Shown here: positions 10,967 through 58,145 of the stretch, piece after piece
How the letters are laid out: each line of letters starts with the position of its first letter
Position numbering within the stretch: the first letter of the stretch is position 1
Assembly: GCF_039727615.1 (NCBI RefSeq)
Contig: NZ_CP152474.1
Location: 3,782,001 to 3,846,000 of the forward strand
Direction of reading: 5' to 3'
DNA length: 64,000 nucleotides
Origin: Leclercia sp. S52
Lineage (GTDB): Bacteria; Pseudomonadota; Gammaproteobacteria; Enterobacterales; Enterobacteriaceae
Notes under the pieces: generated by a model
Database searches by the model: none
What the model was told of the DNA's origin: nothing
The model's input: only the letters and a program-made list of their open reading frames with translations
Position numbers and translations under genes: made by a program

Positions 10967-10972
10967 AGCGTT

Positions 10973-13244: not shown

Positions 13245-15392
13245 TTACCCTTTGGCCATCTCCTTCAGGTGCTTTTTCAGCTTGTGATATTCATCAATCA
13301 CGTACTGTTCCGCCCTCTGCTGGTCGGCAATCGGCTCCACGCGCACGGCGCAATACTTATACTCCGGCGTTTTGGTAATCGGGCTCAGGTTCTCCGTCAC
13401 CAGCTCGTTACAGGCACCAATCCACCACTGGTAGGTCATGTATACCGCCCCGATATTCGGGCGATCGCTCACCTGGGCGCGGGTAATGACTTTGCCTTTG
13501 CGCGACGTAACCCAGACCAGGGCTTCGTCCTCAATACCGAGGCGCTTCGCATCGGCGGTATTGATCTGCGCATAGCCCGGTTCATCCGCCAGGGCAGCCA
13601 GCGCCGCACAGTTACCGGTCATTGAGCGGCAGGAGTAGTGGCCGACTTCGCGCACCGTCGACAGCACCAGCGGGTACTCCTCGGTGAGCTTGTCGATCGG
13701 CGCAACCCAGTCGCAGGTATAGAGCTGCCCCAGCCCGTTCGGGGTGGAAAACTCTTTCTCGAACAGGTAATCCGTCCCCTGATCGGCCTCTGACTCGTCG
13801 CGGCACGGCCACTGGATATAGCCCAGCTCGCCCATCTTCTCGTAGGTGGCACCGAAGAAATCCGGGCACAGATGACGCAGTTCATCCCAGATCTGCCGGG
13901 TGTTGTCATAGTGCATCGGATAGCCCATCCGGGTGGCGATCTCGCTGATGATCTGCCAGTCGGTTTTCAGGTCCCACTTCGGCTCGACCGCTTTGAAGAA
14001 GCGCTGGAACCCCCGGTCGGCGGCGGTGTAGACCCCTTCGTGCTCACCCCAGGAGGTGGACGGCAGGATCACATCGGCGGCGGCGGCGGTCTTGGTCATA
14101 AAGATGTCCTGCACAATGACCAACTCCAGCTCCTCAAAGGCCTTACGCACCGCAGACAGCTCGGCGTCGGTCTGGAGTGGATCTTCCCCCATGATGTAGG
14201 CGGCACGCACTTCGCCGTGCGCGACCCGGTGCGGCAGCTCGCTGATGCGGTACCCGGTATGGGCAGGCAGAGCGTCCACGCCCCAGGCTTTCGCGAACTT
14301 GGCCCGGTTTTCCGGATTGTTGATGTACTGATAGCCTGGATAGGTATCCGGCAGTGCACCCATGTCGCACGCGCCCTGGACGTTGTTCTGACCGCGCACC
14401 GGGTTCACCCCCGCGTACGGCTTGCCGAGGTTGCCGGTGAGCAGCGCCAGGCTGGTCAGGGAACGCACGGTTTCCACGCCCTGGTAGAACTGGGTCACTC
14501 CCATGCCCCACAGAATGGCCGCGTTTTCCGCTGCGGCATACATCCGTGCCGCCTGACGGATCTCCTGGGCGCTGACACCGGTGATCGCTTCAACGGACTC
14601 CGGCGTATAGCCTTCGACAATTTTGCGATACTCCTCGAAGCCTTCGGTACGCGCCGCCACAAAGGCGCGGTCGTACAGCTGCTCTTCGATAATCACGTGC
14701 CCCATCGCGTTAAGCAGCGCGATGTTGGAGCCGTTTTTCAAAGCGATGTGCATATCGGCAATGCGCGCGGTTTCGATTTTGCGCGGATCGCAGACGATAA
14801 TTTTTGCCCCTTTGCGTTTGGCTTTGATCACCCGGTTCGCCACGATAGGGTGCGAATCCGCTGGGTTATAGCCGAAAATAAACACCATATCGGCATTCTC
14901 GATGCCAACAATGGAGTTACTCATTGCGCCGTTACCGACCGACTGGTGCAGACCTGCAACCGATGGGCCGTGTCAGACGCGCGCGCAGCAGTCGACGTTG
15001 TTGGTGCCGACTGCCGCGCGGGCAAATTTTTGCATGATGTAGTTGGTTTCATTCCCGGTGCCGCGGGATGACCCGGTGGTCATGATCGCATCCGGGCCGT
15101 GTGCCGCTTTGATCGCACTGAGTTTAGTGGCAACGTAATCCAGGGCTTCGTCCCAGGAGGCGGCCTCCAGCTTGCCGCCGCGCTCGCGACGGATCATCGG
15201 GGATTTCAGGCGCGGGGTCAGGATCTGCGTATCGTTGATAAAATCCCAGCCGTAGTAGCCTTTCAGGCAGAGATCGCCCTGATTGGTCTTACCCTGTGCC
15301 GCTTCAGCCTTGACGACTTTGCCGTTATCGACCACCAGGTTAATTTTGCAACCCGATGCGCAATAGGGGCAAACCGTGACGACTTTCTTCAT
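13245..15392 (-). CDS. fdhF: Formate dehydrogenase H, selenocysteine form
   Basis: Molybdenum bis-MGD enzyme that oxidises formate to CO2 in the formate hydrogenlyase complex. The N-terminal 4Fe-4S motif is VCPYCASGCK with the fourth Cys in LCLKGYYGWDF. An in-frame TGA at 14973-14975 is codon 140, in CCARV-U-HGPSVAG, exactly the selenocysteine position of E. coli FdhF, and the hairpin needed for its insertion follows. Total length is 715 residues, equal to E. coli. The following His141 and the later molybdopterin-binding regions (CDPRKIETARIAD, GQNNVQGACDMG) are kept. It has its own sigma-54 promoter and is preceded by the nickel permease gene. In E. coli this gene is far from the other FHL genes; here it joins them. 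Automatic callers will split it in two at the TGA. Confidence 0.97.
14934..14972 (-). other. bSECIS hairpin for selenocysteine insertion in fdhF
   Basis: Immediately after the UGA codon the mRNA can fold with arms around GGTTGCAGGTCTGCACC: the apical GGTGCAGA/TGCAACC pairing and the exposed GGTCT loop match the E. coli fdhF element bound by SelB. This explains the in-frame stop codon. Confidence 0.9.
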
Positions 15393-15429
15393 CGGTAGTT
15401 ACTCCGTTAGTAATATGTCCTCAGCGGTA

Positions 15430-15445
15430 TGCATGAAGTGTGCCA
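15430..15445 (-). promoter_or_regulatory. Sigma-54 promoter of fdhF
   Basis: Minus-strand TGGCACACTTCATGCA: the -24 element TGGCAC is perfect and GC of the -12 element is at exactly the right distance. It lies about 40 bases upstream of the fdhF start. Confidence 0.92.
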
Positions 15446-15512
15446 GCCCGAGATTAATCTTTAAGCCATTGAAACAGATAAAGAATGAAGGGAAGTTTTT
15501 GCGGGGAGCCAG

Positions 15513-15541
15513 CCGTTCGTCATAAATGTCATGACGAACGG
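15513..15541. promoter_or_regulatory. Candidate FhlA upstream activating site for fdhF
   Basis: Perfect 11-base inverted repeat (CCGTTCGTCAT / ATGACGAACGG) about 70-110 bases upstream of the -24/-12 promoter, a typical enhancer distance. It includes the TCGTCA/TGACGA core also seen near the other FHL promoters. It lies just after the permease stop, so it may double as a 3' hairpin. Confidence 0.55.
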
Positions 15542-15553
15542 ACAGCGATGACG

Positions 15554-16573
15554 TTAGCGTACGACCAGCGCGTCGTAGCCTTTGAAGCGGTAGTTAATCA
15601 GAGAGGCGATCCAACAGAGGATAAACAGCCCGACCACGATAAACCCGGCGTTGCCGAGGTTGTCATTCAGCGCGGCCACGCCGTTCCACAGACCGCCCGT
15701 CAGGCCAAACTTATCTGCCAGCAGGCCCAGCGCTTCCAGCCCGCCGATGAACAGCGCCACCACCACCGAGGTACCGGTAATGGTCATGTTGTAGTAGAGC
15801 TTGCGCTGCGGCTTGTTGAAGGCCCAGCCGTAAGCGCCCACCATGATCAGGTTGTCGAGGGTGTCGATCAGCGCCATGCCGCTGGTGAACAGCAGCGGGA
15901 AGACCATGATCGCCCACACCGACATGCCGCTGGAGGCCCCGGCGGCGGAGATCCCCAGCACCCCGATCTCGGTGGCGGTATCAAAGCCGAGGCCAAACAG
16001 AAAGCCCACCAGATACATATGCCAGCTGCGGGTCACCAGGCGGAACGCCGAGCGGAACAGCCAGTTCATCACCCCGCCGCGCGCAAAAGAGACCTCTTCC
16101 GGCACCTTCTCGCCGCGCTTCATTTTGTTAAAGCTGCCCCAGACGTCGCGCAGGATCGCCAGGTTCACCAGCGCCATCGCCAGCAGGAAAAAGGCCGACA
16201 CCGCCGTGCCGATGGTGCCGCCGGTCTCGTGGAACCACTCCATGTTGCGGCTGAAGGCGGTGGCGGTCGCGGCGATGGCAATCGAGGCCAGCACCACAAT
16301 GGAGGAGTGGCCCAGCGAGAACCAGGCCCCCACGCCGCACGGACGTTTGCCCTGCTGCATCATCTTGCGGGTGACGTTATCAATGGCGGCGATGTGATCC
16401 GCATCCACCGCGTGACGCAGGCCGTAGCACCAGGCCAGCAGGCTGGCCGCCATCAGCGACGGGGTGTTGTGAAACAGGTAAAACGCGGTTCCCCAGGCGA
16501 CAATGTTGGTAGCGATCAGAGCCAGCATCAGCGCCATGGCCTTGGGGTGGTTATTGAAGTATTTGATAAACAT
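15554..16573 (-). CDS. NiCoT-family nickel/cobalt permease
   Basis: A 339-residue inner-membrane transporter of the HoxN/NixA/HupN family with about eight membrane helices. The signature RHAVDADHIAAIDN (His-X4-Asp-His) is present in helix 2, with LGHSSIVV and FGLGFDTATEIG further on. It supplies nickel, and possibly cobalt. It lies 14 bases after hypF in the same direction and before fdhF, so it is probably transcribed with hydN-fdhF2-hypF and dedicated to hydrogenase maturation. E. coli uses the NikABCDE ABC importer instead. Confidence 0.93.
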   Translation of the reverse strand: MFIKYFNNHPKAMALMLALIATNIVAWGTAFYLFHNTPSLMAASLLAWCYGLRHAVDADHIAAIDNVTRKMMQQGKRPCGVGAWFSLGHSSIVVLASIAIAATATAFSRNMEWFHETGGTIGTAVSAFFLLAMALVNLAILRDVWGSFNKMKRGEKVPEEVSFARGGVMNWLFRSAFRLVTRSWHMYLVGFLFGLGFDTATEIGVLGISAAGASSGMSVWAIMVFPLLFTSGMALIDTLDNLIMVGAYGWAFNKPQRKLYYNMTITGTSVVVALFIGGLEALGLLADKFGLTGGLWNGVAALNDNLGNAGFIVVGLFILCWIASLINYRFKGYDALVVR

Positions 16574-16587
16574 CCTGATATCCCGAT

Positions 16588-18814
16588 TTAAGAAAGAGAC
16601 GCGGCAGCAATCACCGCCTGTCCAAATGCAATCGCGCCGTCTCCGGCGGGCAGTCGCCCGGGAAACAGCACGGTAAAATCGCCCAGCCAGAACTGCAGGC
16701 GTTCCCGCAGGAGCCGGTTATGCATCACCCCGCCGCTGCAGACGATGGTGTCGAGGTTGCGCATCCTGGCGTGCAGCGCCGCCAGCGTCGCCAGGCCGTG
16801 GGCCAGCGCGTCGTGGAACGCCCAGGCGCGTGCCTCAGCCGGGGCCTGCCAGCCCAGCCACTGCTGCCAGAAGGTGGCCATATCCAGATCGCCGTCGATG
16901 ACCGGCAAGGTGACCGGATGGCTGACCGGCCCGCCGCGCAGGGCCAGGGCTTCCAGCCGACAGGCGGCCTCCCCCTCATAGCTGAGCTGCGCCGGGGCAC
17001 AGTCCGTTGCGGCAGCCACGGCGTCAAACAGCCGTCCGGCAGACGAGGCCAGCGGCGAATTGACCCCGCGGGCGATCGCCTGAGCCAGCGGCGGCCAGGG
17101 TTTATCGGCGAGGATTTTTGCCTCCGGCAAGGTCTGCCACTCGGGCACAAAGGCCTGGAACTGCGCCAGCAGGTTGCGCCACGGCTGACGCGCCGCCAGG
17201 TCACCGCCGGGCAGCGCCACCGCCGGCAACCCACCGAGCCGGTCACAGCTGCGGTAGTTGACCCGCAGGCACTCCCCGCCCCACAACTCGCCTTTTTCCC
17301 CCTGGCCGATACCGTCAAGGACCAGGGCGATGACATCCCCGCCGTCGCGCGGCCAGTCGTGTTCCGCCAGACAGGCCGCCGCGTGGGCGTGGTGATGCAG
17401 CACCCGATGATGCGGATACGGCATCTGCTCCCCAAGCCGGGTGGAGCGATAGCCGGGATGGGCATCGGTCACTACGCCTTCCGGGCTAAACTGCCAGAGA
17501 TCCTGCAGCGCGTTCAGCGCCTGCTGCCACTGGGCCAGCGCGTCGTCGTCCCCCAGATCGCCCAGGTGCTGGCTGAGGATCGCCTCCCCGCCACGCACCA
17601 GGCAGAAGGTGTTTTTCAGATCCGCGCCAAGACACAGCAGCGAAGGCACATGGTCAAAACCGGGCGGCAGCGGCAGCGCATCCGGGACAAAGCCCCGGGA
17701 GCGGCGCAGCATTTCGCCGCTGGCGCGCAGCACCGAGTCGTCCATGCGCTGTACGATGTCGCGGTTATGCAGCAGCCAGCCGTCGGCGATCCCGTCCAGA
17801 TCCTGCATGGCCCGGTCGTTGGTCAGCGCCGGCGGGCAGCCGTTAAGGTTGCCGGAGGTCATCACCAGAGGGCAGTCCAGATCCTGCATCAGCAGGTGCT
17901 GGATCGGGTTCGCCGGCAGCATTACCCCCACCTCGTTCAGCCCCGGCGCGATGGCCTCGCAGCAGGCCAGCAACCGTTTATCCACCAGCACAATCGGCGC
18001 CGCCGTGGAACGCAGCAGCGCCTGAGCCTCTGCGGGGAGTGCATCGGCTAAGCGCTGCGGGATCATCACCGCCAGCGGTTTCGCCGGACGCCCCTTGCGC
18101 TCGCGCAGCCGGGCAACCGCCTGCTGATTACCGGCATCGCAGGCCAGATGGAAACCGCCCAGCCCCTTTATCGCCACGATCCCGCCCTGCTTGAGCGCCG
18201 CCTCCGCAGCCCGCAGGGCGTGGTCTTTCTCTGCTCGCGCTTCGCCGCACACCCAGCTCAGCTGCGGCCCACAGTCCGGGCAGGCCACCGGCTGGGCGTG
18301 AAAGCGCCGGTCGGCGGGGTTGCGGTACTCCGCCTCACAGGCCGGACAGAGGGCAAACTCCGCCATGGTGGTGGCCGGACGGTCATAAGGCATCGCCCGG
18401 ATAATGGTGAAGCGCGGCCCGCAGTGGGTGCAGTTGATAAAGGGATAACGGTAGCGACGCTCCCGCGGATCGTTCATCTCGGCCAGACACGCCGGGCAGG
18501 TGGCGGCATCCGGCACCACCTGGGTGGCCATCTGCCCCTGCCCGCTGGGCAGAATGGTGAAATCCACCGGCAGCGGTGCCCAGTGCCACGGCTGCTCGCT
18601 GATGTCGTCAATGCGCGCCAGCGGCGGGCCTCCGGCAGCCAGCCGGGTGATGAAGGCCTGCGACTCGCCGGTGAGGCGCACCACCACCCCTGCCCCGTCG
18701 TTGCAGACGTCACCCTTCAGCTCCAGCTGCCGGGCCAGTTGCCAGACCCAGGGGCGAAACCCCACCCCCCTGGACTTTGCCGCGAATGCGCAGCAGCGTG
18801 CCATTTGTCCTCAT
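16588..18814 (-). CDS. hypF: HypF carbamoyltransferase, +1 shift near the N-terminus
   Basis: Makes the cyanide ligands of the NiFe site with HypE, using carbamoyl phosphate. Domains in order: acylphosphatase (residues about 1-90), double zinc finger (CPACLAEM... CTHCGPRF and CPAC... CPDCG), YrdC-like, and Kae1-like ([30 protein letters not shown]). The real start is an ATG at 18814, three bases after the second fdhF. After 15 codons the C run at 18765-18770 has six bases where five restore [16 protein letters not shown], the acylphosphatase core; without correction only an ATG at 18804 in the other frame opens the gene and the product lacks that core. Corrected length is about 741 residues. 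It belongs to the hydN-fdhF2-hypF operon. Confidence 0.93.
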
Positions 18815-18817
18815 GAA

Positions 18818-20968
18818 TTAACTCTCTACCGCCTCGCGCAGGCGTTGTTTCATCGCGCTGTAGGTGGTCTGGGCATAGTTTTCTGCCCAGTGTTGATCGG
18901 CAATAGTGTCGATCTTCACCGCGCAGTATTTGGTTTCCGGCGTTTTCGAGACCGGGTCGAGGTTGTCCTGGGTCAGCTCGTTGCAGGCCCCAATCCACCA
19001 CTGATAGGTCATGTATACCGCCCCCTGGTTGATGCGCTCGTTGACGTCAGCGCGGCTGATCACCTTCCCGCGGCGGGAGCTGACCCACACCAGCTGGCGA
19101 TCGCGGATGCCGAGCACCTGGGCATCCTGCGGGTTGATCTGCACAAAACCCGGCTCGTCCGCCAGGGTTTGCAGCGCCGCGCAGTTGCCGGTCATCGAGC
19201 GGCAGGAGTAGTGCCCCACCTCGCGCACGGTGCAGAGCACCAGCGGATAGTCGGCGTCCGGCATCTCCGCCGGTTTGCGCCACGGGGCGGCAAACAGCTG
19301 GCCTTTGCCGCTCGGGGTGTCGAAGCGGTTGCCCTCGTACAACCACGGCGTACCCGGATGGTCGAGGGTCGGGCACGGCCACTGGATATGCCCCATCTCG
19401 CCCATTTTTTCGTACGTCACGCCGTAGAACAGCGGGCAGAGCTCGCGCATTTCGTCCCAAATCTGCTGGTTATCGCGGTACGCCATCGGGTAGCCCATCG
19501 CGGTGGCGATCAGGCTGATGATCTCCCAGTCGCGCTTGACGTTGCCCTTCGGTTCAACGGCTTTTTCAAAGCGCTGGAAGCCGCGGTCGGCGCAGGTGAA
19601 GACCCCGCCGTGTTCGCCCCATGAGGTGGCGGGCAGCAGCACGTCCGCCGCCTCGGCGGTTTTGGTCATAAAGATGTCCTGCACCACCACAAAGTCGAGC
19701 GCGTCAAACCCTTTGCGCACCAACCCTAAGTCGGCTTCGGTCTGAAGCGGATCTTCCCCCATGATGTAATAGGCTTTGACCTTGCCCTCCAGCGCCAGGT
19801 GCGGCACTTCGGTGATGCGCACCCCCACCTGGTCGTCCATCAGCGCAGGATCGACGCCCCACGCCCGGGCGAATTTCTCCCGCACCTGCGGGTCGGTCAC
19901 GTCCTGATAGCCGGGGAACTGGTTGGGGATCACCCCCATGTCGCACGCGCCCTGGACGTTGTTCTGCCCGCGCACCGGGCCGACGCCGCAGTGTTCGCGC
20001 CCGAGGTTGCCGGTGAGCAGCGCCAGGGTGGAGAGCCCTTTCACCACGTCCACCGCCTGCCCGAACTGGGTGACGCCCATCCCCCACATCACGGTGGCGG
20101 ACGGCGCGGCGGCGTAGATGCGCATCGCCTCGCGGATCTGCCGGGCGCTGACCCCGGTGATCCCCTCGACGTTTTCCGGGGCGTACTCACTGACCGTTTC
20201 GCGCAGGGCGTCCAGCCCTTCGGTGTAGCGGGCCACGTAGTCGGCGTTGTAGAGGCTCTCGTCCAGCAGGGTATAAATAAAGGCGTTCACCAGCGCCATG
20301 TTGCAGCCGTTGTGGATCTGCAGGTGCCGGTCGGCAATGCGCGCGGTTTCAATTTTGCGCGGATCGCAGACGATCACCCTTGCGCCGTTCTGTTTGGCTT
20401 TGATCACCCGGCGGGCGACGATCGGGTGCGAGTCGGCGCAGTTGTAGCCGAAGATCAGCAGGCATTTTGAGTTTTCGATATCGCTGATGGAGTTGCTCAT
20501 CGCCCCGTTGCCCAGCGTCTCCTGTAGCCCGGCCACGCTCGGCCCGTGGCAGACGCGGGCGCAACAGTCGACGTTGTTGGTGTTGAGCACCCCGCGGGCA
20601 AACTTCTGCATCACGTAGTTGGTTTCATTCCCGGTGCCGCGGGACGATCCGGTGGTCATGATGGCGCGAGGCCCGTAGTTAGCCTTGATTTCACTCAGGC
20701 GGCGGGCGGTGTAGCGGATGGCTTCATCCCAGGTGACCGGCTCCAGCTTGCCGCCTTTCTGGTAACGGATCATTGGCTGGGTGAGGCGCGGCGTCAGCAG
20801 CCGGGTATCGTTGAGAAAATCCCAGCCGTAATAGCCCTTCAGGCACAGCTGATTCTGGTTGGTGACGCCCTGCGCGCCCTCCGCACGAACGATCTTATTG
20901 TTGTCGACGACGAGTTTTAATTTACAGCCCGCACCACAGTACGGGCAGACGCTGGTGATTTTTTTCAT
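18818..20968 (-). CDS. Second FdhF-type formate dehydrogenase, cysteine form
   Basis: A 716-residue bis-MGD protein that aligns along its length with FdhF: VCPYCGAGCK cluster motif, CLKGYYGWDF, GTGNETNYVMQKFAR, CDPRKIETARIAD and GQNNVQGACDMG. At residue 140, where FdhF has selenocysteine, it has Cys: CCARV-C-HGPSVAG, codon TGC at 20549-20551, one base from TGA. The bSECIS hairpin sequence is not kept after it. An upstream ATG at 21046 exists, but homology begins at the ATG at 20968. Cys enzymes of this family normally turn over more slowly but need no selenium, so it may serve under selenium limitation or use another partner. It is encoded between hydN and hypF. Product identity is firm; the physiological role is inferred. 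Confidence 0.93.
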   Translation of the reverse strand: MKKITSVCPYCGAGCKLKLVVDNNKIVRAEGAQGVTNQNQLCLKGYYGWDFLNDTRLLTPRLTQPMIRYQKGGKLEPVTWDEAIRYTARRLSEIKANYGPRAIMTTGSSRGTGNETNYVMQKFARGVLNTNNVDCCARVCHGPSVAGLQETLGNGAMSNSISDIENSKCLLIFGYNCADSHPIVARRVIKAKQNGARVIVCDPRKIETARIADRHLQIHNGCNMALVNAFIYTLLDESLYNADYVARYTEGLDALRETVSEYAPENVEGITGVSARQIREAMRIYAAAPSATVMWGMGVTQFGQAVDVVKGLSTLALLTGNLGREHCGVGPVRGQNNVQGACDMGVIPNQFPGYQDVTDPQVREKFARAWGVDPALMDDQVGVRITEVPHLALEGKVKAYYIMGEDPLQTEADLGLVRKGFDALDFVVVQDIFMTKTAEAADVLLPATSWGEHGGVFTCADRGFQRFEKAVEPKGNVKRDWEIISLIATAMGYPMAYRDNQQIWDEMRELCPLFYGVTYEKMGEMGHIQWPCPTLDHPGTPWLYEGNRFDTPSGKGQLFAAPWRKPAEMPDADYPLVLCTVREVGHYSCRSMTGNCAALQTLADEPGFVQINPQDAQVLGIRDRQLVWVSSRRGKVISRADVNERINQGAVYMTYQWWIGACNELTQDNLDPVSKTPETKYCAVKIDTIADQHWAENYAQTTYSAMKQRLREAVES

Positions 20969-21008: not shown

Positions 21009-21554
21009 TTACAGCATCTGCGAGGAAACGGAGTCCAGCGCCGCACGGCGGCGTTTATCGAGACTCAACTGCTCAAGCTTCTTGCGATCGATGCAAACAA
21101 TGGCATTGGTCGGGCAGGCCTGAATGCAGGCCGGGCCGTCCGGCTGGTGGTAGCAGAGGTCGCACTTGTTGGCCTCGGCCTTTTCCGACATCACGTTCAG
21201 CCCCGCGCCGATGCTGCGCACAACCGGACGCAGCACCACTTCCATCGCGCCGTACGGGCAGGCGACGACGCAGGTTTTGCAGCCGATGCAGCGCTCCTGA
21301 TGGACGTGAACAAAGTCGTTATCGCGGGTGATGGCCCCGTTCGGGCAGACGCTGGCGCAAGGGGCGTCTTCACACTGGCGGCACATGGTGGCCGTGGAGA
21401 CGTTGACGCCTTTGATGACGTGAATGCGCGGCAGGAAGTTCTGCGGGGTCAGCGAGGCGCAGTCCTGGGTATCGTGGTGTGACACCACGCAGGCCACTTC
21501 ACAGGTACGACAGCCGATGCATTTGCTGGCATCGGCGATGATGAAACGGTTCAT
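21009..21554 (-). CDS. hydN: HydN 4Fe-4S ferredoxin-like electron carrier
   Basis: A 181-residue iron-sulfur protein with four clusters predicted from Cys motifs CIGCRTCEVAC, CRQCEDAPCASVCP, CIGCKTCVVACP and CDLCYHQPDGPACIQACP. HydN is thought to carry electrons from formate dehydrogenase H or to assist it, and resembles HycB. A GGAG sequence precedes the ATG. It is the first gene of the operon hydN-fdhF2-hypF-nickel permease behind a sigma-54 promoter. In E. coli the operon is hydN-hypF without the second dehydrogenase, which suggests that HydN here is a partner of the Cys enzyme. Confidence 0.93.
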   Translation of the reverse strand: MNRFIIADASKCIGCRTCEVACVVSHHDTQDCASLTPQNFLPRIHVIKGVNVSTATMCRQCEDAPCASVCPNGAITRDNDFVHVHQERCIGCKTCVVACPYGAMEVVLRPVVRSIGAGLNVMSEKAEANKCDLCYHQPDGPACIQACPTNAIVCIDRKKLEQLSLDKRRRAALDSVSSQML

Positions 21555-21593: not shown

Positions 21594-21609
21594 TGCATAA
21601 ATTGGGCCA
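21594..21609 (-). promoter_or_regulatory. Sigma-54 promoter of hydN operon
   Basis: Minus-strand TGGCCCAATTTATGCA: GG of the -24 element and GC of the -12 element are spaced exactly as required. It lies about 40-55 bases before hydN. Confidence 0.85.
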
Positions 21610-21653: not shown

Positions 21654-21681
21654 CTGTCATCGACATAAGTGACGATGACAG
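21654..21681. promoter_or_regulatory. Candidate FhlA site upstream of hydN
   Basis: Perfect nine-base arms CTGTCATCG / CGATGACAG separated by ten bases, 45-90 bases upstream of the sigma-54 promoter. The TGTCATCG element resembles the palindromes near hycB and hycA. Confidence 0.55.
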
Positions 21682-22939: not shown

Positions 22940-22962
22940 CGACAGACCAGAAGCGGGAAGCT

Positions 22963-24282: not shown

Positions 24283-24739
24283 CTACAGTTCGCCAAACCC
24301 CAGCACCCCATCCCTCTCCGCCAGGCTTTCATACATGATTTCCACCGCCTCTTTAACCTTCTCCGTCATCGGATAATAAAACCCCACAATATCCGGTTGA
24401 ATCCCTAAAAACACCACCTCCCCCACATCCCCCCTTCAGCTGATCCACCAGGTAGTTCAGCGGCATATTGTGCGTCGTCATCATAAACATCTCGGCGATG
24501 TCGTCCGGGTCGATGCGGCGGATCTCGCCGGGGTTGAGCCCCATATCCGTCGCATCGACAATCAGCAGGCGCGCCGGGCGCAGCTCGCGGATCGCGACCA
24601 CGTCGTTTTCCGGGGCGCTGCCGCCGTCGAACACCACCCAGTCGCCGCGGGGCGCTTCGCGGCACATCTCGGCCAGCAACGGACCGGCACCGTCGTCGCC
24701 CATCATGCTGTTGCCGACGCAAAGTAAAACATCAGTCAC
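24283..24739 (-). pseudogene. hycI: HycI endopeptidase for HycE, one +1 frameshift
   Basis: Nickel-dependent protease that removes the C-terminal peptide of HycE once nickel is inserted. The N-terminal CVGNSMMGDDGAGP and DATDMGLNPGEIR, with THNMPLNYLVDQLK, are kept, including the acidic residues (Asp in GDD and in VDATD) and His that bind nickel. The C run at 24429-24434 has six bases; five give QLKGDVGEVVFLGIQPDIVG and a frame ending in LGFGEL at 24283, about 151 residues against about 156 in E. coli. Without correction the product ends at 128 residues with a foreign tail. It overlaps hycH by eight bases and is the last gene of the hyc operon. Confidence 0.9.
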
Positions 24740-25142
24740 GTTGCCTCCGAACCATCAGATAGATGGCGTTTTCCTGGTGAATGGCGTGGAGCATGCCGAG
24801 CATCGCCCGGCTCCACGTCTGCTGCTGCGCCGTCTGCCGCGCTATTGCGGCGTCAAAGGCGCTGGCCAGCATTACAATATGATTCGCGTCGATCACAATC
24901 TCCCCGTAGCGCGGCACGCCCTCCATTTTGCGCCGCGCCTCGCTCCCCGTTTCCAGAGTGGCGATCCATGACAGGTACGCCTCCCACGGGCAGGTCAGCG
25001 CCGCCTCCAGGCAGTCGATGACCCCCAGATGGTGGCCGATGGCCAGCCCGTAGTAGATCACCTGCTGGGCGTCGTCGGGCGTGTTGTCATTTTCATCAAT
25101 GAACTTGCGGCTGAGCTGGCTGAAGACCACGGTTTCGCTCAT
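24732..25142 (-). CDS. hycH: HycH formate hydrogenlyase maturation protein
   Basis: A 136-residue soluble protein needed for full maturation of hydrogenase 3, with a role near processing of the large subunit; it is not a structural part. No metal-binding motif is visible. Identification rests on similarity to E. coli HycH (FSQLSRKFIDENDNTP, YYGLAIGHHLGVIDCLE) and on position between hycG and hycI, sharing one base with hycG. Confidence 0.93.
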   Translation of the reverse strand: MSETVVFSQLSRKFIDENDNTPDDAQQVIYYGLAIGHHLGVIDCLEAALTCPWEAYLSWIATLETGSEARRKMEGVPRYGEIVIDANHIVMLASAFDAAIARQTAQQQTWSRAMLGMLHAIHQENAIYLMVRRQRD

Positions 25143-25906
25143 CAGACACGCTCCTGCCCGACCACCTCGATGAGGTTGCCGACAATCTCGTTCAGACGCG
25201 GGTCGTTCTCCCGGGCCAGCCAGTCCACCACGCTTTTATCCCCTTCCAGCAGATGGCGCATAAAGTTGTCGGCGATCTGGCGGCCGTAGCGGTAGCCCGC
25301 CAGACGGCGCGCGGCGCGGTCGATGCGGACCCGCAGGGGCTGAACCATCTCCGGATGCAGCAGTTCAGCGGGCTGGCTGTCCAGCGCGCCCGGCTCGCGG
25401 GCGTGGATCTTCTGCTCCAGCAGCCCCAGCGCCATGGCAAAGCCGTACAGGGTGGCGGCAGGCGACGGCGGGCAGCCGGGGATATAGACATCCACCGGAA
25501 CGATTTTGTCGGTGCCGCCCCAGACGCAGTAGAGGTCGTGGAAGATGCCGCCGGAGTTGCCGCAGGCTCCGTAGGAGATACAGATTTTTGGATCCGGGGC
25601 GGATTCCCACGCGCGCAGCGCCGGGGAGCGCATCGCGCGGGTGACTGCGCCGGTAAACAGCAGGATGTCGGCGTGGCGCGGGGATGGCACCACCTTAATG
25701 CCGAAGCGCTCAGTGTCGAAGATCGGCGACAGGGTAGCGAAGATCTCAATCTCGCAGCCGTTGCAGCCGCCGCAGTCCACGCGGTAGACGTAGGCCGAGC
25801 GCTTGATTTTTTTCAGCAGCGAGGCCTTCATGCTGGCGATGGACTCATCCACCGTCACCGGCACCGGGATCCCCTGCTCGTTACGTGGCCCTAACAGTTC
25901 GCTCAT
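25142..25906 (-). CDS. hycG: HycG hydrogenase 3 small subunit
   Basis: A 254-residue NuoB-like [4Fe-4S] subunit that passes electrons to the NiFe subunit HycE. Cluster ligands are in [20 protein letters not shown] and [11 protein letters not shown]. It lacks the long second and third cluster regions of uptake hydrogenases, as in other group 4 hydrogenases. It overlaps hycF by four bases and sits on the cytoplasmic side of the complex with HycE and HycF. Confidence 0.95.
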
Positions 25907-26449
25907 CGTGTCGCTTCCTTCATCTCGCGGGTCAGATGGATTTTGTCCGAGGGGGTCAGCCCCTGCAGGCGCTTGCAGTCCGGGCAGGTCTCAAAACTTT
26001 CCCGGTGACGCTCCGCGCGTTTATCGCCGTTGTGGCGCAGCAGTTCGATGACGTAGTCGATCTCTTTCTGCACCGCGTACGGGCGCTCGCACACCCGGCA
26101 GTGGCAGATATCGAAGCGCGACTGCTGGAGGAAATCAGCCTTGCTCCACACCGCCAGTTCGTACTCCTGAGAGAGCTTGATGGCGGTGGTCGGGCAGACC
26201 TCTTCGCAGCGTCCGCAGAAGATGCAGCGCCCCAGGTTGAACTGCCAGAACAGCTCGCCGTTCTTTAAATCGGTCTCCACCGTCAGGGCATTGGACGGGC
26301 AGGCGTTCACGCACGCCGCGCAGCCGATACACTGCTGTGGGTCGTGCTCCGGCTTGCCGCGCATATTTTTGTCGACCGCAATCGGCTGGAGGGGATAAGA
26401 CTCCGTCACCGTGCCGGTTTTGATGACTTTTTTTGATAAAGGTAAACAT
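25903..26449 (-). CDS. hycF: HycF ferredoxin subunit, +1 shift near the N-terminus
   Basis: NuoI-like protein with two 4Fe-4S clusters, [16 protein letters not shown] and [16 protein letters not shown], plus further Cys pairs (CHCRVC, CPDC) near the end. The correct start is the ATG at 26447-26449 ([20 protein letters not shown]). The T run at 26428-26434 has seven bases where six are needed. As sequenced, only a later ATG giving 168 residues opens this frame; the corrected protein has 181 residues, like E. coli (180). Confidence 0.93.
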
Positions 26450-26461
26450 GGATGCTCCGGG

Positions 26462-28171
26462 TTATTTCAGCGGCGAGTTCTTGCGTTCAATGCTGTAGCG
26501 TTCCAGCTCTTTGTACGGCACCACCTTGCTCTTCTTCTTGCGCACATCCACCACCGTCATGCGGTCGGTGCAGGAGTAGCAAGGGTCGAGGCTGCCGATA
26601 ATCAGCGGCGCATCGGAGACGGTGTTGCCGCGCAGCATGTAGCGCAGGGTCGGCCAGTTGGCGTAGGTGGCCGCGCGGCAGCGCCAGCGCCACAGCTTCT
26701 GGTTGTCGCCGGTCATGCTCCAGTGGATATCATCCCCGCGCGGCGCTTCGCTGAAGCCCAGCGCAAAGCGGTTCGGGATATAGGTAAAGCCTTCCACCAT
26801 CAGCTCGCCGCCCGGCAGGTTGTCGAGGCCGAAATCGATCATGTTCAGGGCGGTGTAGACCTCGTTGATGCGCACTTTCAGGCGGGAAATCACGTCGCAG
26901 CCCTGTTCGGTGTGAACCTCCATCGGCAGCAGGCCGTAGCCGACAAACGGGTGATCGGCGCGGGTGTCGCGGGCGTGGCCGCTGGCGCGCACCATCGGGC
27001 CGACGTTGCTGAAGTCGCGGGCGATCTGCGGGTCGAGACGGCCCACGCCGACGGTGCGCTGGTCGATATTCGGCGTGCTCAGCAGAATATCCACCAGATC
27101 CTGCACCTCGCGACGCATCTGCTGGGCCAGCAGGCGGGTGGCGATCATGTCCTCTTTCAGCAGGTCGCGACGGATGCCGCCGATCAGGTTCAGGCCGTAG
27201 GTTTTACGCGCCCCGGTGAGGATCTCCGCCATCTTCATGGAGGTCTCACGCACGCGGAAGAACTGCATAAAGCCGGAGTCAAATCCGACGAAGTGGCAGG
27301 CCAGCCCGAGGTTCAGCAGGTGCGAGTGCAGGCGCTCCACCTCAAGCAGGATGGCGCGGATCATCTGGGCGCGTTCCGGCACCACGATCCCCATCGCGTT
27401 CTCCACCGAGGTGGTGTAGGCCGTGCTGTGGGCAAAGCCGCAGATGCCGCAGACGCGATCCGACAGGAAGGTCACTTCGTTGTAGCCCATGCGGGTTTCG
27501 GCCAGCTTCTCCATGCCGCGATGGACGTAGAACAGGCGGTAGTCGGCGTCGATGATGTTCTCGCCGTCGACGAACAGGCGGAAGTGGCCCGGCTCATCGG
27601 AGGTAACGTGTAGCGGGCCAATCGGCACCACGTTGTTTTTCTTGTCGCCGAGTTCGTTGATGAACTCGTAAGTCTCTTTATCGGTGGTCGGAGCCGGGCG
27701 CTGACGGTAGTCCATGCTGTCTTTGCGCAGCGGATAGAGTTCGTCCGGCCAGTCATCCGGCAGCACCAGACGACGCTCGTCCGGCAGGCCCACCGGCACC
27801 AGGCCGTACATGTCGCGCACTTCGCGCTCGCCCCACACCGCCGCGGGCACGCGCGGGGTGACGGACGGGAACTCCGGCTTGTCGGCGTCCACTTCCACGC
27901 GCACGGTGAGCCAGCAGCGGGTGCCCTGCTCCATCGACAGCACGTAGTAGACGGCGTAACTGCCGCAGAGCTGGCGTTCGTCGTTGCCAAACAGCACCGA
28001 CAGCCAGCCGCCCTGCTTGTAGTACAGGAACTCGACCACTTCCGGCAGGTAGTTAATTTTTACCGTCACGGTGATTTGATCTTTGGTCTGCCAGGCTTCA
28101 TCGAGCACCACGCCCGGGAAGGCCTGATGCAGTGCGGCGAGATAGTGTTGACCAACTTTTTCTTCAGACAT
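26462..28171 (-). CDS. hycE: HycE NiFe hydrogenase 3 large subunit
   Basis: A 569-residue fusion of a NuoC-like N-terminal domain (about 1-170) and a NuoD-like NiFe catalytic domain. Nickel ligands are in RVCGICGFAHS and in DPCYSCTDRMTVVD. HycI cuts after the Arg of CTDR and removes the tail MTVVDVRKKKS...NSPLK. This is where protons are reduced to H2. Intact and of normal length; 15 bases separate it from hycD. Confidence 0.97.
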   Translation of the reverse strand: MSEEKVGQHYLAALHQAFPGVVLDEAWQTKDQITVTVKINYLPEVVEFLYYKQGGWLSVLFGNDERQLCGSYAVYYVLSMEQGTRCWLTVRVEVDADKPEFPSVTPRVPAAVWGEREVRDMYGLVPVGLPDERRLVLPDDWPDELYPLRKDSMDYRQRPAPTTDKETYEFINELGDKKNNVVPIGPLHVTSDEPGHFRLFVDGENIIDADYRLFYVHRGMEKLAETRMGYNEVTFLSDRVCGICGFAHSTAYTTSVENAMGIVVPERAQMIRAILLEVERLHSHLLNLGLACHFVGFDSGFMQFFRVRETSMKMAEILTGARKTYGLNLIGGIRRDLLKEDMIATRLLAQQMRREVQDLVDILLSTPNIDQRTVGVGRLDPQIARDFSNVGPMVRASGHARDTRADHPFVGYGLLPMEVHTEQGCDVISRLKVRINEVYTALNMIDFGLDNLPGGELMVEGFTYIPNRFALGFSEAPRGDDIHWSMTGDNQKLWRWRCRAATYANWPTLRYMLRGNTVSDAPLIIGSLDPCYSCTDRMTVVDVRKKKSKVVPYKELERYSIERKNSPLK

Positions 28172-28186
28172 GGTTATTCTCTACAG

Positions 28187-29110
28187 TCACGCCGCCAGCA
28201 AGGAGACGAAAGCTAAAAATGCCAGACCGAAACCGGTCCAGGTAATGCGTGAGGTGGCGTTAAAGCGCAGGCGCGCCATGCTGTTCTCAAACAGGGCGAT
28301 CACCAGCACGCCCGCCACCAGCTTCACCACCGCAATGACGATCGCCAGCAGCAGGCCGCCTGCGGAGAACTGCGTCATCTGTCCCCAGGGGATAAACACC
28401 CCGACGAACATCTGCAGCACCACCAGCTGTTTCAGGCTGATGCCCCACTTGAGGAGCGCAAAGCCCGCGCCGCTGTATTCCGACAGCGGGCCTTCCTGCA
28501 GCTCCTGCTCGGCTTCGGCGAGGTCAAACGGCAGCTTGCCCATCTCAATAAAGGTGGCGAAGGCGCAGGCGCACAGCGCCAGAATCAGCGTCACGGAGTG
28601 CGCCCCCGGCCAGTGATAGATGGTCGCGGTCACGGCGCTGATGTGGGTATTGCCCGCCACCTGCGCGGCGACCCACAGACCCAGCAGCAGGATCGGCTCT
28701 ACCAGCACGCCGAGCATCGCTTCACGGCTCGCGCCAATCCCGGTGAACGGGCTGCCGGTATCGAGCCCGGCAATGGCGAAGAAGAAGCGGGCGATAGCGA
28801 AGAGGTAGATCAGAACGATCAGATCCCCCAACGCAGGCAGCGGCGAAGCGACGGTGATCACCGGCAGCGCGGTGGCAATGGCGAACATCACCGCCACCAT
28901 CACAAAGGGCATCAGGCGGAAGACCCAGCCGGAGGCGGCCGGGGCCACGCTCTGGCGGCCCAGGAGTTTGATCAGATCCCGGTACTCCTGGAAGATATCC
29001 GGCCCGCGACGGGTATGCAGACGGGCACGCGCCACGCGGGTAATGCCCGCCAGCAGCGGCGCAACGGCAAACAGCACCAGCGCCTGAATCAAAGCAAAGA
29101 TGAGGGTCAT
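28187..29110 (-). CDS. hycD: HycD membrane anchor subunit
   Basis: A 307-residue NuoH-like integral membrane protein with about eight helices that ties the soluble hydrogenase arm to the membrane. Signature stretches RRGPDIFQEYRDLIKLL and MGKLPFDLAEAEQELQEGP are typical of NuoH relatives. Intact. The hycC gene begins two bases upstream of it, so they are translated together. Confidence 0.96.
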   Translation of the reverse strand: MTLIFALIQALVLFAVAPLLAGITRVARARLHTRRGPDIFQEYRDLIKLLGRQSVAPAASGWVFRLMPFVMVAVMFAIATALPVITVASPLPALGDLIVLIYLFAIARFFFAIAGLDTGSPFTGIGASREAMLGVLVEPILLLGLWVAAQVAGNTHISAVTATIYHWPGAHSVTLILALCACAFATFIEMGKLPFDLAEAEQELQEGPLSEYSGAGFALLKWGISLKQLVVLQMFVGVFIPWGQMTQFSAGGLLLAIVIAVVKLVAGVLVIALFENSMARLRFNATSRITWTGFGLAFLAFVSLLAA

Positions 29111-29112
29111 GC

Positions 29113-30946
29113 TCAGGCTCCTCGGGAGATAACGACAACCACCAGCACCGCCAGCTCAATCAGGGCGATACGGTGGAACAACACGGCGGTGCCGTCGCAC
29201 TGCCAGCCGGGGATCAGGCGCACCGGGTTGAGCCACTTGCGCAGCTTCAGCACCGGGGCAAAGGACTCTTTCACCGGCATCGCAAAGCCGTGAGCGGTGA
29301 TGACCATCGCGGCTTCGTGATCGTAGCCGCAGACCCAGGCAAAGCCGCGGGAGCGGTTCGCCAGACGGTCGCCTTTGAACAGCACCATCACGATAAACGG
29401 CAGCAGCAGACCGGCGAGCAGCAGCAGGGTCATCATCGGCTGCGAGACCGTGGACATCTCGCCGCCGCTGACCGGGAACAAACCGCTGATCATCGGCAGG
29501 AACCATGGGGCCGCCACACCGCCCGCCACGCAGAGCAGCGCCGCCAGCACGGTGCTGAAGGTCATCATCCCCGGCGCGCAGCGGGCGTTTTCCGCCTCCT
29601 TTGTGCGCGGTGCGCCGAGGAAGGTGACGCCATAGATTTTCGCCATACACATCACCGCCAGCGCGCCGGTGATTGCCAGGCCGGTCGCCAGCAGCGGCCC
29701 CAGCAGACGGGCGATAAACGCATCGTGGGTGCCGAGGTTAAAGAAGGACTGATAGATCACCCACTCTCCGGCAAAGCCGTTCAACGGCGGCAGGGCTGCC
29801 ATCGCCATCAGCCCCACCAGCATGGCCAGCGAGATGAGCGGCATTTTTTTGCCGATACCGCCGAGCTTCTCAATATCGCGATGGCCGGTGCGATACCACA
29901 CCGCGCCCGCACCGAGGAACAGCGTGGTTTTAAACAGCCCGTGGCTGACCAGGTGGTAGAGACCGCCGGTAAAGCCGAGCGCAATCAGCAGGTTGCTGTG
30001 CAGCGCAATACCGGTGACGCCCGCCCCGAGGCCGAGCAGGATAATGCCGATGTTTTCCAGGGTGTGATACGCCAGCAGGCGCTGGATGTTGTGCTCCATC
30101 AGAGCGTACAGGCCGCCGATAAAGGCGGTGAGCATCCCCATCACCAGCAGCAGCACCCCGAGCCACAGCGGCGGTAAGGCTCCACTGAGGGAAACGGTGA
30201 GCATGCCGTAGAGACCGACCTTCATCACCACCGTGGAGAAGAGCGCGGCGGCCGGGGCGCTGGCGTTAGCATGCGCCTGCGGAGCCCAGCCGTGCAGCGG
30301 GATCACCCCGGCCAGCAGGCCAAAGCCCGCCAGCCCCGGCAGCCAGACGCTGGCCCCCGGTGCCTGGGCGGTAGCCAGGGCACTCATCGCCCCAAAGTTC
30401 AGGGTGCCGTAGTAGATCCACGCCTGCCAGCAGGCGATGGCCAGCAGGATCGTCCCGAGACGACCCAGCACAAACCACAGCTTGCCGGACTGGGCGCAGC
30501 CGGTGAGAAACGCGGCGCAGAGGGCCATCACCTCGGCCATCACCACCAGCCAGCCGAAGTTATCGACCATGATGGCGGCCACGGCGGCAGCCATCAGCAG
30601 GTTGGTCAGCAGGCCGTGGCTTCTGGCCTGCGGGGGGGCGGATCCAGGCGACGGTATACAGGCTGATAAGAAACGCCGGCAGGCCGATGGCGATAAGCCA
30701 TACCGCGCGGATGCCGGTCATCTGCATGCCGATGTGAAGCCAGGTCATCTCAGCCTGCTGCGGCACGATCTGCGGCGCGGCGAGCAGCGTCATCACCCCC
30801 GCCATCACCGCCATAGCGCTGCCAATCGCCCCGCCGAAGCCGGAAGCGGCGCGGCTGAGGATGCGGTTTTCGCTGAACACCAGTGCCAGCACGGCGCTGG
30901 TCACGTACCACGCCAGCGCCTGGTTAATTAACGATAAGGCGTTCAT
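29113..30946 (-). pseudogene. hycC: HycC membrane subunit, one +1 frameshift
   Basis: NuoL/Mrp-antiporter-like subunit with about fifteen helices that may couple H2 production to ion movement. It keeps LHGWAPQAHANASAPAAALFSTVVMK and EHNIQRLLAYHTLENIGIILLGLGAG, containing the Lys/Glu/His residues of antiporter-like channels. The G run at 30632-30638 has seven bases; six join IRPPQARSHGLLTN in one frame. Corrected length is about 610 residues (E. coli 608). The ATG at 30946 overlaps the hycB stop as TGATG; an earlier TTG in the frame at 30949 is not needed. Confidence 0.94.
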
Positions 30947-31552
30947 CAAAGCTCTCCTTGTTGCGACTGGAACAGCGACAGATCGCCCAGATCCGTATGC
31001 AGGGTGAGTTCGCGCTTGTTCCGGCTGGCGCGCGCGATGTCCGCGTTATTAATCAGACGCAGGGATTTGGTCGGGCAGGTGCGGACGCACGCCGGGCCGT
31101 CCGGGTCGAAGTAGCAGAGATCGCACTTCACCGCGATGGCGCGCACGCCGGGCACCCAGTCGAGGAACGGGCTGACGCGGGCGGGAGCCGGCGGGGCCAT
31201 CGGCGCCTTGCTGGTATTACAGTTGGCAGGAATGGCCCGCGGGCGGCTGCCGGCAAATTCAACGGCGCCAAACGGGCAGGCAATACCGCACAGCTTGCAG
31301 CTGACGCACAGGCTTTCATTAAGCTGGATGGCACCGTCAATGCGGGTGATGGCATTGACCGGGCACACCTGGGCGCAGGGGGGCATCTTCGCAGTGATGG
31401 CACAGCTGCGGCGCAGAGTCGGTGTTGTTGCGCATCACTTTCAGTCGCGGCTGGCTTTGCAGGCCATGCTGGCGATGGTTTTCTGAACAGGCTGCCTCAC
31501 AGGTATGGCACCCGATACAGAGCGTGGGATCGGCAATTACAAAACGATTCAC
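30946..31552 (-). pseudogene. hycB: HycB electron-transfer subunit, one +1 frameshift
   Basis: Four-cluster ferredoxin that takes electrons from FdhF to the hydrogenase. Cys motifs are CIGCHTCEAAC, CHHCEDAPCAQVCP, CVSCKLCGIACP and CDLCYFDPDGPACVRTCP. The second motif is split by an extra G in the run at 31378-31383 (six instead of five). Translation starts at a GTG (MNRFVIADP), with AGAGGA six bases upstream; an upstream ATG at 31576 has no ribosome site. Corrected length is about 202 residues. Confidence 0.94.
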
Positions 31553-31573
31553 CTGGTTTCCTCTGGTGATAGT

Positions 31574-31613
31574 CATTTTTGACGAAAAATGGCGGAAGTG
31601 TCATTTTCGACAC
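31574..31613. promoter_or_regulatory. Paired palindromes, candidate FhlA sites between hycA and hycB
   Basis: CATTTTT-GACG-AAAAATG (31574-31591) and GTGTC-ATTTTC-GACAC (31598-31613) lie between hycA and hycB. In E. coli FhlA also binds in the hycA-hycB gap, with the published consensus CATTTCGTACGAAATG that the first palindrome resembles. Confidence 0.6.
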
Positions 31614-31628
31614 CTGACGACATCGAAT

Positions 31629-32087
31629 TCAGGCGGCAGCGTGGTGCCGGGCGAGCGTCGCCAGGGTCAGCGATTCGCCGCGTTCGGTAGCCTCAAACAG
31701 CGCGTTATACACCCCGTTGATTTTCCCGAGAAAATGGTCGAACACCGCCTCGCGCTGGTCGATGTGGACGCTGCCGTCCAGCATCCCGTCGTCGCCCAGA
31801 CGGGCGCGACCAATCAGCACGCTCTGTTCTTCGTCACGCGCTTCGATGGTGTAATTGAAGATATGCCCGTTGAACGCCTGCTCAGGCGTCACGCGGATCA
31901 GGAAGTGGTCGAACAGCCAGAAACCGAGCCCGGTGTCGTTATTGCAGCCCACACTCAGATGCAGACTGGCTTTAGAGAGGGTGATGGCCTGAACCAGGGA
32001 ATTACCGTAGTGGTTCCAGTGGGCGCGGAGCACGCGCTGTTGTCCGGCAATGAAATTGGCTTTTTCGCTCAATTCGTTAAGTGTCAT
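31629..32087 (-). CDS. hycA: HycA repressor of the FHL regulon
   Basis: A 152-residue protein that counteracts FhlA. The only features visible are an amphipathic, largely helical sequence (TLNELSEKANFIAGQQRVLRA) and no HTH. It is the first gene of the hyc operon, transcribed from a sigma-54 promoter 45 bases upstream and divergent from hypA. Identification is by similarity to E. coli HycA and by position. Confidence 0.92.
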   Translation of the reverse strand: MTLNELSEKANFIAGQQRVLRAHWNHYGNSLVQAITLSKASLHLSVGCNNDTGLGFWLFDHFLIRVTPEQAFNGHIFNYTIEARDEEQSVLIGRARLGDDGMLDGSVHIDQREAVFDHFLGKINGVYNALFEATERGESLTLATLARHHAAA

Positions 32088-32675: not shown

Positions 32676-33548
32676 ATGTGTACTACCTGCGGTTGCGCTC
32701 ACGGCAACCTCTATATAGAAGGCGACGAGCGGAACGCCCATTCCGCTTTTCGCAGCGCCCCCTTCTCTCCGGCCCCGCGTCAGGCGTTTCAGGTCACGCG
32801 CATCGGCGGCGGGGATTTTGCGCCCTCAGAACAACAGCCGGGCCAGCTTGATTACGGCCAGGGCGCCGCAGGCACCCACGCTCCAGGCCTGAGCCAGCGC
32901 AAAATGGTCGAGATTGAGATCGACGTGCTGAGCAAAAATAATCAGCTCGCTAAGCTGAACCGCCAGCGGTTCAGCGCCCGACACCAGCTGGCGCTGAATC
33001 TTGTCTCCAGCCCCGGTTCCGGTAAAACCACCCTGCTGACCGAGACCTTAAAACGCTTACAGCAGCGCGTCTCTTGCGCGGTGATCGAAGGCGATCAGCA
33101 GACCGTGAATGATGCCGAGCGGATCCGCGCTACCGGCACCCCGGCGATCCAGGTCAATACCGGCAAAGGCTGCCACCTCGACGCTCAGATGATTCATGAC
33201 GCGACGCAGCGCCTGCCGCTGGATGACGGCGGGATCATGTTTATCGAGAACGTCGGCAACCTGGTCTGCCCGGCCAGCTTCGATCTCGGGGAGCGTCATA
33301 AGGTGGCGGTGCTCTCCGTGACCGAGGGCGAGGACAAGCCGCTGAAATACCCCCATATGTTCGCCGCCGCCTCCATCATGCTGCTCAACAAGGTCGATCT
33401 GCTGCCGTACCTCAATTTTGACGTGGAGAAATGCCTCGCCGCCGCCCGGGAAGTGAACCCGGATATCGCGATCCTGCTGGTCTCCGCCACGCGCGGTGAC
33501 GGGATGGACGCCTGGCTTGACTGGCTGGAGGCGCAGCGATGTGCATAG
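32676..33548 (+). CDS. hypB: HypB nickel-binding GTPase
   Basis: A 290-residue SIMIBI GTPase that loads nickel. The N-terminal CTTCGCAHG is the high-affinity nickel site (CxxCGC), the P-loop is [11 protein letters not shown] (about residue 110), and ENVGNLVCP and [10 protein letters not shown] are the G3 and G4 regions. No histidine-rich stretch is present, as in E. coli. It is three bases after hypA and overlaps hypC. Confidence 0.96.
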
Positions 33549-35946: not shown

Positions 35947-35976
35947 CAGCAGACTCTCATTTTCTGGATATAACGC

Positions 35977-55517: not shown

Positions 55518-58145
<2,628 letters not shown>

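Follow-up and report, generated by a model that had tools for sequence, protein, structure and literature searches.

Formate dehydrogenase genes in the formate hydrogenlyase locus

We analyzed the formate hydrogenlyase (FHL) locus in a 64,000-nt stretch of DNA from Leclercia sp. S52 (NZ_CP152474.1; "the window", to which all window coordinates refer), with emphasis on its two genes for the formate dehydrogenase FdhF, one with a selenocysteine (Sec) and one with a cysteine (Cys) codon at position 140. The gene order on the minus strand is hydN, fdhF(Cys), hypF, nixA and then, behind a promoter-like site, fdhF(Sec). The hyc operon lies beyond hydN, and hypB, hypD, hypE and fhlA (1248 bits for the FhlA family match) lie further beyond (Table 1).

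Both fdhF genes are intact and full-length, as an earlier note made from the sequence alone had claimed. fdhF(Sec) has a single in-frame TGA, at codon 140, and a match to a model of the selenocysteine insertion sequence (SECIS) element. fdhF(Cys) has TGC at codon 140 and zero internal stops, and no SECIS model matched it at E-values up to 1. The Cys form is assigned to FdhF by its TIGR01591 match, and the Sec form by its identity with the Cys form (460 of 713 residues) and by a Sec clade that it shares with E. coli K-12 FdhF. For the selenoprotein assignment of the Sec form, we found the in-frame UGA, the SECIS element directly downstream, and SelB (over cut-off) and tRNA-Sec (80.9 bits, over gathering threshold) in the same genome.

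A third full-length FdhF gene, again with TGA at codon 140, is located outside the window at C1:321398-323545 (minus strand) of the same genome (G000, one 4.93 Mb contig). Its product is identical to the window Sec form in 618 of 715 residues. Neighboring genes match K-12 YjcO (61% identity over 220 amino acids) and GltP (93%), and the K-12 order is gltP-yjcO-fdhF. The third copy thus occupies the E. coli site, so the presumed pair is a trio and the E. coli-type gene is the copy outside the window, called native below. The earlier note was mistaken in taking the window Sec copy for the E. coli-type enzyme: it is not an orthologue of E. coli fdhF, since that position is held by the third copy and the window gene belongs to a separate clade. 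Residues C8, C11, C15, C42, K44, U or C at 140, H141 and R333, which we take to be the active-site and iron-sulfur residues of FdhF, are kept in the window Sec, window Cys and native proteins.

Table 1. Genes and candidate control elements of the FHL locus (window coordinates)
Feature	Position	Strand	Evidence or remark
hydN, ferredoxin-like electron transport protein	21009..21554	-	NF007658, 353 bits (cut-off 260)
fdhF(Cys), 716 aa, codon 140 TGC at 20549-20551	18818..20968	-	TIGR01591, 899 bits (cut-off 666)
hypF reading frame, 5' end shifted in the window assembly	16588..18804	-	Family match over cut-off
NixA/HoxN-type nickel permease	15554..16573	-	TIGR00802, 399 bits (cut-off 333)
fdhF(Sec), cluster lineage, 715 aa, codon 140 TGA at 14973-14975	13245..15392	-	
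SECIS element inside fdhF(Sec)	14926..14980	-	Rfam SECIS_2 RF01988, 86.3 bits (gathering 70)
hyc operon (hydrogenase 3), presumed electron acceptor	24353..32087	-	
hypB, hypD, hypE (shifted in the window assembly) and fhlA (35977-38064)	32676..38064	+	
Sigma-54-like promoter TGGCCCAATTTATGCA of the hydN unit	21594..21609	-	Starts 55 nt upstream of the hydN ATG
Sigma-54-like promoter TGGCACACTTCATGCA of fdhF(Sec)	15430..15445	-	Starts 53 nt upstream of the ATG
Inverted repeat CTGTCATCG-N10-CGATGACAG upstream of hydN, candidate FhlA site	21654..21681	-	Putative activator
Inverted repeat CCGTTCGTCAT-N7-ATGACGAACGG upstream of fdhF(Sec), candidate FhlA site	15513..15541	-	Putative activator

The earlier note had also given each fdhF gene its own sigma-54 promoter. 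fdhF(Sec) does have a promoter-like site in front of it, and so does the hydN unit. The Cys gene, the second gene of this unit, has none: its own 230 nt upstream gave no match to a relaxed sigma-54 pattern (a first pattern missed the K-12 fdhF promoter and was relaxed prior to counting). For Salmonella, hydN-hypF and fdhF are given among the genes that depend on sigma-54 and FhlA (PMC3844500). A generic CGTCA-TGACG inverted-repeat pattern for FhlA sites was discarded as not specific (one match in the window, at 57473, against 0.52 expected).

Several genes are frameshifted in the window assembly. Compared with a genome of the same species (G011), the window has single extra bases, mostly in homopolymers, at 10968, 11609, 12069, 18770, 22314, 24434, 30638, 31383, 35404 and 39572. 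The 5' end of hypF is shifted by one additional base, absent from the same-species genome, in a G/C run near 18765-18770; single extra bases in G/C runs also shift hycB, hycC and hycI, which are open in G011, and hypE is shifted as well. A dead hydrogenlyase was set aside, as G011 is without the extra bases in all five genes. Because of this, and because extra bases in the window also shift genes outside the hydrogenase set, the frameshifts are probably sequencing or assembly errors, with a private mutation as the other possibility.

The interval between hydN and the hyc operon contains an inserted IS3-family element with an IS1222 frameshift signal (window 22906-23796) and a C4 antisense RNA of the P4-phage type (21911-21997) beside a small unassigned open reading frame (22049-22471). 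The C4 RNA recurs in the hydN-hyc gap of six of eight relatives scanned; in the other two, the gap lies outside the stretch (L042) or C4 is found elsewhere (L044).

Distribution and ancestry of the FdhF lineages

Genomes were searched at E ≤ 1e-250, with at most 18 candidates scored per genome of the genus and at most 7 per genome of the family, and the FdhF counts are therefore lower bounds. In the genus (60 genomes), at least 59 genomes have FdhF, at least 53 the Cys form, at least 55 the Sec form and at least 49 both (G056, 78% complete, enters the Cys count through a partial match that contains two stops). At least ten genomes of the genus combine the window's Cys type with a linked Sec copy ("cluster Sec copy") and a further Sec copy. 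Among 149 family genomes, at least 69 have FdhF, and these divide into 29 with both forms, 20 with Cys only and 20 with Sec only among the candidates scored. Judged by coordinates, Sec and Cys genes are no more than 6 kb apart in at least 5 of the 29.

We collected 80 named loci, 79 of them with a Cys gene. hydN stands directly upstream of this gene in 52 of the 79 loci, and in 48 of those 52 hypF follows directly downstream; 38 of the 79 have nixA, and 27 have neither hydN, hypF, nixA nor a Sec FdhF as neighbor. hydN-fdhF(Cys)-hypF is thus an ordinary order. The tie of the Cys form to hydN and hypF described in the earlier note is real (unit hydN-fdhF(Cys)-hypF-nixA), and so is the contrast with E. 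coli, as hydN and hypF of K-12 are not separated by an fdhF gene and its fdhF is located elsewhere. These counts, and the co-occurrence of Sec and Cys forms in 29 of the 69 FdhF-bearing family genomes, do not support the view that the arrangement is unusual. A Sec FdhF in the fetched stretch is found for 4 of the 79 Cys loci (Silvania hatchlandensis, S. confinis, Franconibacter pulveris and Hafnia alvei).

In five congeners examined, hydN adjoins hypF with no fdhF in between. Twenty Cys loci of the genus were labeled orphan on the basis of 1.5 kb flanks. All 20 are without hypF and nixA, and 5 have a hydN-like match (29% identity in L052, the one read further).

A tree of 203 unique proteins from the 227 found was calculated with residue 140 masked and rooted at the midpoint. 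The midpoint split leaves 84 proteins with U and 2 with C at residue 140 on the Sec side, and 115 with C, 1 with U and one with a Cys-Cys motif on the Cys side. A recent Sec-to-Cys duplication in this organism was ruled out by the separate deep Cys and Sec clades and by the identity of the window pair given above. A second tree of 47 chosen Sec-lineage FdhF proteins, again with residue 140 masked, has a cluster-Sec clade with support 100/96, composed of the ten genomes, Franconibacter, G161, G086, G108 (now Cys-coded) and G118, where the gene is about 35 kb from the Cys gene. The native clade, K-12 included, has support 98/99. Constraining the cluster and native copies of the ten genomes plus G028 to one clade was rejected (approximately unbiased test, p-AU 0.0076), which rules out that the cluster gene arose by copying of the native gene within the clade. 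As judged from the trees, the window Sec gene is a separate Sec lineage and not the E. coli fdhF relocated. In Franconibacter (G153) and G161, which represent two other genera, the only FdhF genes among the candidates scored at E ≤ 1e-250 are the cluster Sec gene and the Cys gene.

On the Cys side, 41 of the 42 orphan genes on the tree form one clade. The Cys gene of the ten genomes does not group with these orphan genes of its congeners, but with operonic genes from Siccibacter and Izhakiella. This grouping would fit extra copies that are redundant, were carried along with a horizontally transferred hydrogenase cassette and serve no function related to selenium. We consider such passengers quite improbable, as both genes have open frames in all ten genomes and are under purifying selection, and as the sigma-54-like cores upstream of hydN and of the cluster fdhF(Sec) were each found in 10 of 10 genomes. 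The ratio of nonsynonymous to synonymous divergence (omega; NG86, ten genomes per set) is 0.049 for the cluster Sec gene and on average 0.085 for the Cys gene, which also has its active-site residues and is not a recent pseudogene. The Cys and Sec forms of FdhF represent two ancient clades, both subject to purifying selection.

Residue 140 has also changed within lineages. In G108, the Sec-lineage gene in the nixA-fdhF position (L226:3851-5986) has TGT at codon 140 and a SECIS match still at 71.9 bits, likely a recent Sec-to-Cys change with a fossil SECIS element; no fdhF match was found between hydN and hypF of this locus. The opposite change is a candidate explanation for Shewanella fodinae (L133:9001-11151, L125), in which a TGA-140 FdhF of the Cys side lies beside a Cys paralogue of the same contig and has a weak SECIS_2 match (34.6 bits versus gathering 70). 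Zhang et al. 2006 (PMC1794560) reported few if any Cys homologues of FdhA in Sec users, and no case of FdhA changing from Cys to Sec. Our results differ from that account, with both forms in 29 of 69 genomes and with the S. fodinae gene on the Cys side. In the orphan Cys FdhF of Intestinirhabdus alba (L126:9001-11142), Cys replaces the usual His at 141 and His replaces the usual Arg at 333, and the enzyme is possibly inactive.

The native Sec copy in genomes with a cluster copy

We interpret the window as holding a self-contained FHL locus, and the ten genomes as undergoing a handover of the Sec enzyme's role from the native to the cluster copy, with the Cys enzyme as a selenium-independent backup. 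We put the probability of this reading at roughly 0.55.

Omega for the native Sec gene is 0.083 in the ten genomes and 0.031 in ten other congeners without a linked Sec copy among the candidates scored (one of them, G003, has a second Sec copy in another locus). Nonsynonymous divergence of the native gene exceeds that of the cluster gene in 45 of 45 genome pairs, although the pairs are not independent of one another. We chose 25 of the at least 55 Sec-bearing genomes of the genus and read their native promoters, and distal matches (at 194 in G032, further away in others) were not scored as proximal. On this basis, a proximal sigma-54 core precedes native fdhF in 3 of the 10 clade genomes, in 14 of 15 other congeners and also in K-12; one of the misses in the clade, that of G032, is a deletion. 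A conserved upstream repeat of native fdhF is found in 0 of 10 versus 14 of 15 genomes, and K-12 matches a looser form only. SECIS_2 scores are 86.3 bits for the cluster Sec gene in 9 of 9 genomes tested, 73.0-80.4 bits for the native gene in the ten genomes, and 81.9-86.3 bits for the native gene in nine other congeners. Similar changes are seen in the native gene of G028, the sister of the clade's native copies, and no hyc or hypF match was found in this genome at E ≤ 1e-100, as expected if hydrogenlyase duty is what holds native fdhF.

Other observations, together with the docking and activity of the Cys enzyme taken up below, weigh against the handover. All ten native copies have a distal sigma-54-like site upstream, TGGCCCATTCTGTGCA, which is exact in nine of them and differs by a single base in the tenth; its distance from the ATG, where measured, is 194-232 nt. 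Neither K-12 nor any of the 15 other congeners has this site. About 34 nt separate it from the start of a divergently oriented gene for an OmpR-type response regulator, which is present in clade loci L011, L053 and L056 and not in congener loci L048 and L222 or in K-12 (L217). The distal site thus appears to be either the regulator gene's own or a new control of native fdhF, and the native gene may therefore have come under different regulation instead of decaying. None of the ten native frames is interrupted, and an omega of 0.083 still means strong purifying selection, so the native enzyme is probably made and useful. The TGC to GGC change in the proximal site leaves the GG and GC dinucleotides intact. 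Finally, the native changes are confined to one related clade and its sister G028, and therefore represent few independent events.

The open frames and the shared distal site would favor a native copy that has been re-regulated or specialized, for example under a new two-component regulator or in formate-linked purine breakdown, and that has left the FhlA regulon. A link to purines would have a parallel in the congener G003, where an extra Sec FdhF (L049:7580-9724) is located between xanthine dehydrogenase-like and xanthine permease genes, near ygfT and ssnA. The clade's native copy, however, adjoins yjcO and gltP where examined (L011, L053, L056), and not purine genes. The distal block, so close to the regulator gene, may be that gene's control region, and G028, without hyc or hypF match, has undergone similar changes without a distal site. 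We regard re-regulation as unlikely, despite the open frames and the omega values well below 1.

In L011, the OmpR-type regulator gene (9812-10543) is followed by genes for a PfkB-type kinase and sugar ABC-transporter-like proteins, upstream of native fdhF. A sok antitoxin RNA is found just beyond the 3' end of native fdhF (L011:7073-7222) and also nearby in L048, L053 and L056.

The Cys enzyme and selenium

The earlier note had suggested that the Cys form could sustain hydrogen production at low selenium. No SelB match over cut-off was found in 13 of the 20 Cys-only genomes, while such a match was missing in 0 of the 49 genomes with a Sec form. Together with the Cys-140 FdhF of Pectobacterium atrosepticum, which drives H2 production, this makes a selenium-independent role plausible.

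In P. atrosepticum, deletion of the Cys-140 fdhF reduced H2 about 500-fold (PMC7384014). This enzyme is the main H2 donor of FHL-2 and is encoded in the same locus-tag run as hypF and hoxN, as in our locus (PMC7384014); its identity with E. coli FdhF is given as both 85% and 65% in the same paper. Unlike our locus, FHL-2 contains hydrogenase 4 instead of hydrogenase 3, and P. atrosepticum has no Sec machinery according to the available text (PMC7384014), whereas SelB, tRNA-Sec and Sec isozymes are kept here. In Serratia liquefaciens, hydN and fdhF(Cys) also form one transcription unit, and the available text of that study mentions no neighboring Sec copy (PMC6004506). E. coli FdhF (PDB 1aa6, 7z0t) belongs to the same family, and its four iron-sulfur cysteines, Lys44, His141 and Arg333 are present in all three copies of the window genome. 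The hyc, hyp and fhlA genes of E. coli FHL-1 are found here as well; in K-12, however, the fdhF gene is Sec-coded and away from hyc, while our genome has two FdhF genes in the hyc locus and a third outside it. Termite-gut Treponema, too, have both a Sec and a Cys isozyme of the same enzyme in a single genome. Methanococcus has such pairs as well, and M. maripaludis uses its Cys enzymes when selenium is depleted, with expression of the isoform genes tracking selenium status (PMC11097638).

Whether the Cys enzyme serves hydrogenase 3 bears directly on its role as a backup. In the E. coli FHL structure, Glu621 of FdhF contacts Arg122 of HycF (PMC9474812). Residue 122 of HycF is Arg or Lys in 13 of 15 loci listed, including the reference and two same-species pairs. 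On the Sec side, position 621 is Glu in 58 of 86 sequences and Lys or Arg in 16 others, and position 623 is Glu in 68 of 86. Among the 117 Cys-side sequences, the commonest residues at 621 are Arg (38), Lys (19), Ala (18) and Thr (13), and position 623 is Gln, Arg or Gly in 103. Since this acidic patch is lost or reversed in most Cys forms, docking to hydrogenase 3 is not assured, and the Cys form may dock differently or more loosely. In addition, E. coli FdhF is about 20-fold less active when its Sec is exchanged for Cys (cited in PMC6004506 and PMC3349551).

The mostly lost patch and the position of hydN, directly before fdhF(Cys) in 52 of 79 loci, would also agree with a division of labor, in which the Sec enzyme feeds HycB and the Cys enzyme has a task other than hydrogenase 3, with HydN or some other ferredoxin-like protein as acceptor; different partners, HycB and HydN, had been raised in the earlier note. 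This seems doubtful to us. In the Cys-only genomes G175 (L223) and G165 (L224), hyc adjoins hydN-fdhF(Cys) and no Sec FdhF is among the candidates scored at E ≤ 1e-250, so that the Cys enzyme presumably supplies FHL there. The Cys FdhF of P. atrosepticum is the main donor, though to hydrogenase 4 (PMC7384014), and E. coli retains hydN without an adjoining fdhF.

The locus combines hydrogenase 3, maturation genes, fhlA and two formate dehydrogenases of different old lineages. Handover with a selenium-free backup would then work as follows. The hydN and cluster fdhF units would both answer to formate via sigma-54 and FhlA, which we presume to bind at both and to co-express them. UGA recoding in fdhF is efficient only with selenium (PMC4513850). 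With selenium, UGA-140 would be recoded and the more active Sec enzyme would dominate. Without it, translation of the Sec gene would stop at UGA-140, the slower Cys enzyme alone would be completed, and formate electrons would still reach hydrogenase 3. Such a switch would be passive, at the level of translation, and would need no selenium regulator. In function, the cluster Sec enzyme would replace the one encoded at the E. coli fdhF site.

More broadly, and only tentatively, a second Sec FdhF lineage in the FHL locus of several enterobacterial genera may be displacing the E. coli-type fdhF, a process that would be finished in Franconibacter and G161 and half-way in the Enterobacter/Silvania clade to which the window belongs, and which, with the co-regulated Cys isozyme, would amount to a passive selenium switch by translation termination alone. 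We found no published description of a second Sec FdhF in a hyc locus, in a search that was thin on subscription papers and is not proof. On the phylogenetic evidence, what is new is the cluster Sec copy as a separate lineage; the hydN-fdhF(Cys)-hypF order and the co-occurrence of Sec and Cys forms are already common.

FdhF is a textbook example of a selenoprotein. An enteric fdhF is easily taken for the E. coli gene, and the Sec gene of the locus described here belongs to another lineage. The clade seems to be in transition from one Sec copy to another, with a selenium-free form alongside, and its genomes lend themselves to the question of what keeps Sec and Cys enzymes together. They may also provide a selenium-free FdhF with an evolutionary history next to hydrogenase 3, which would be of use in hydrogen engineering.

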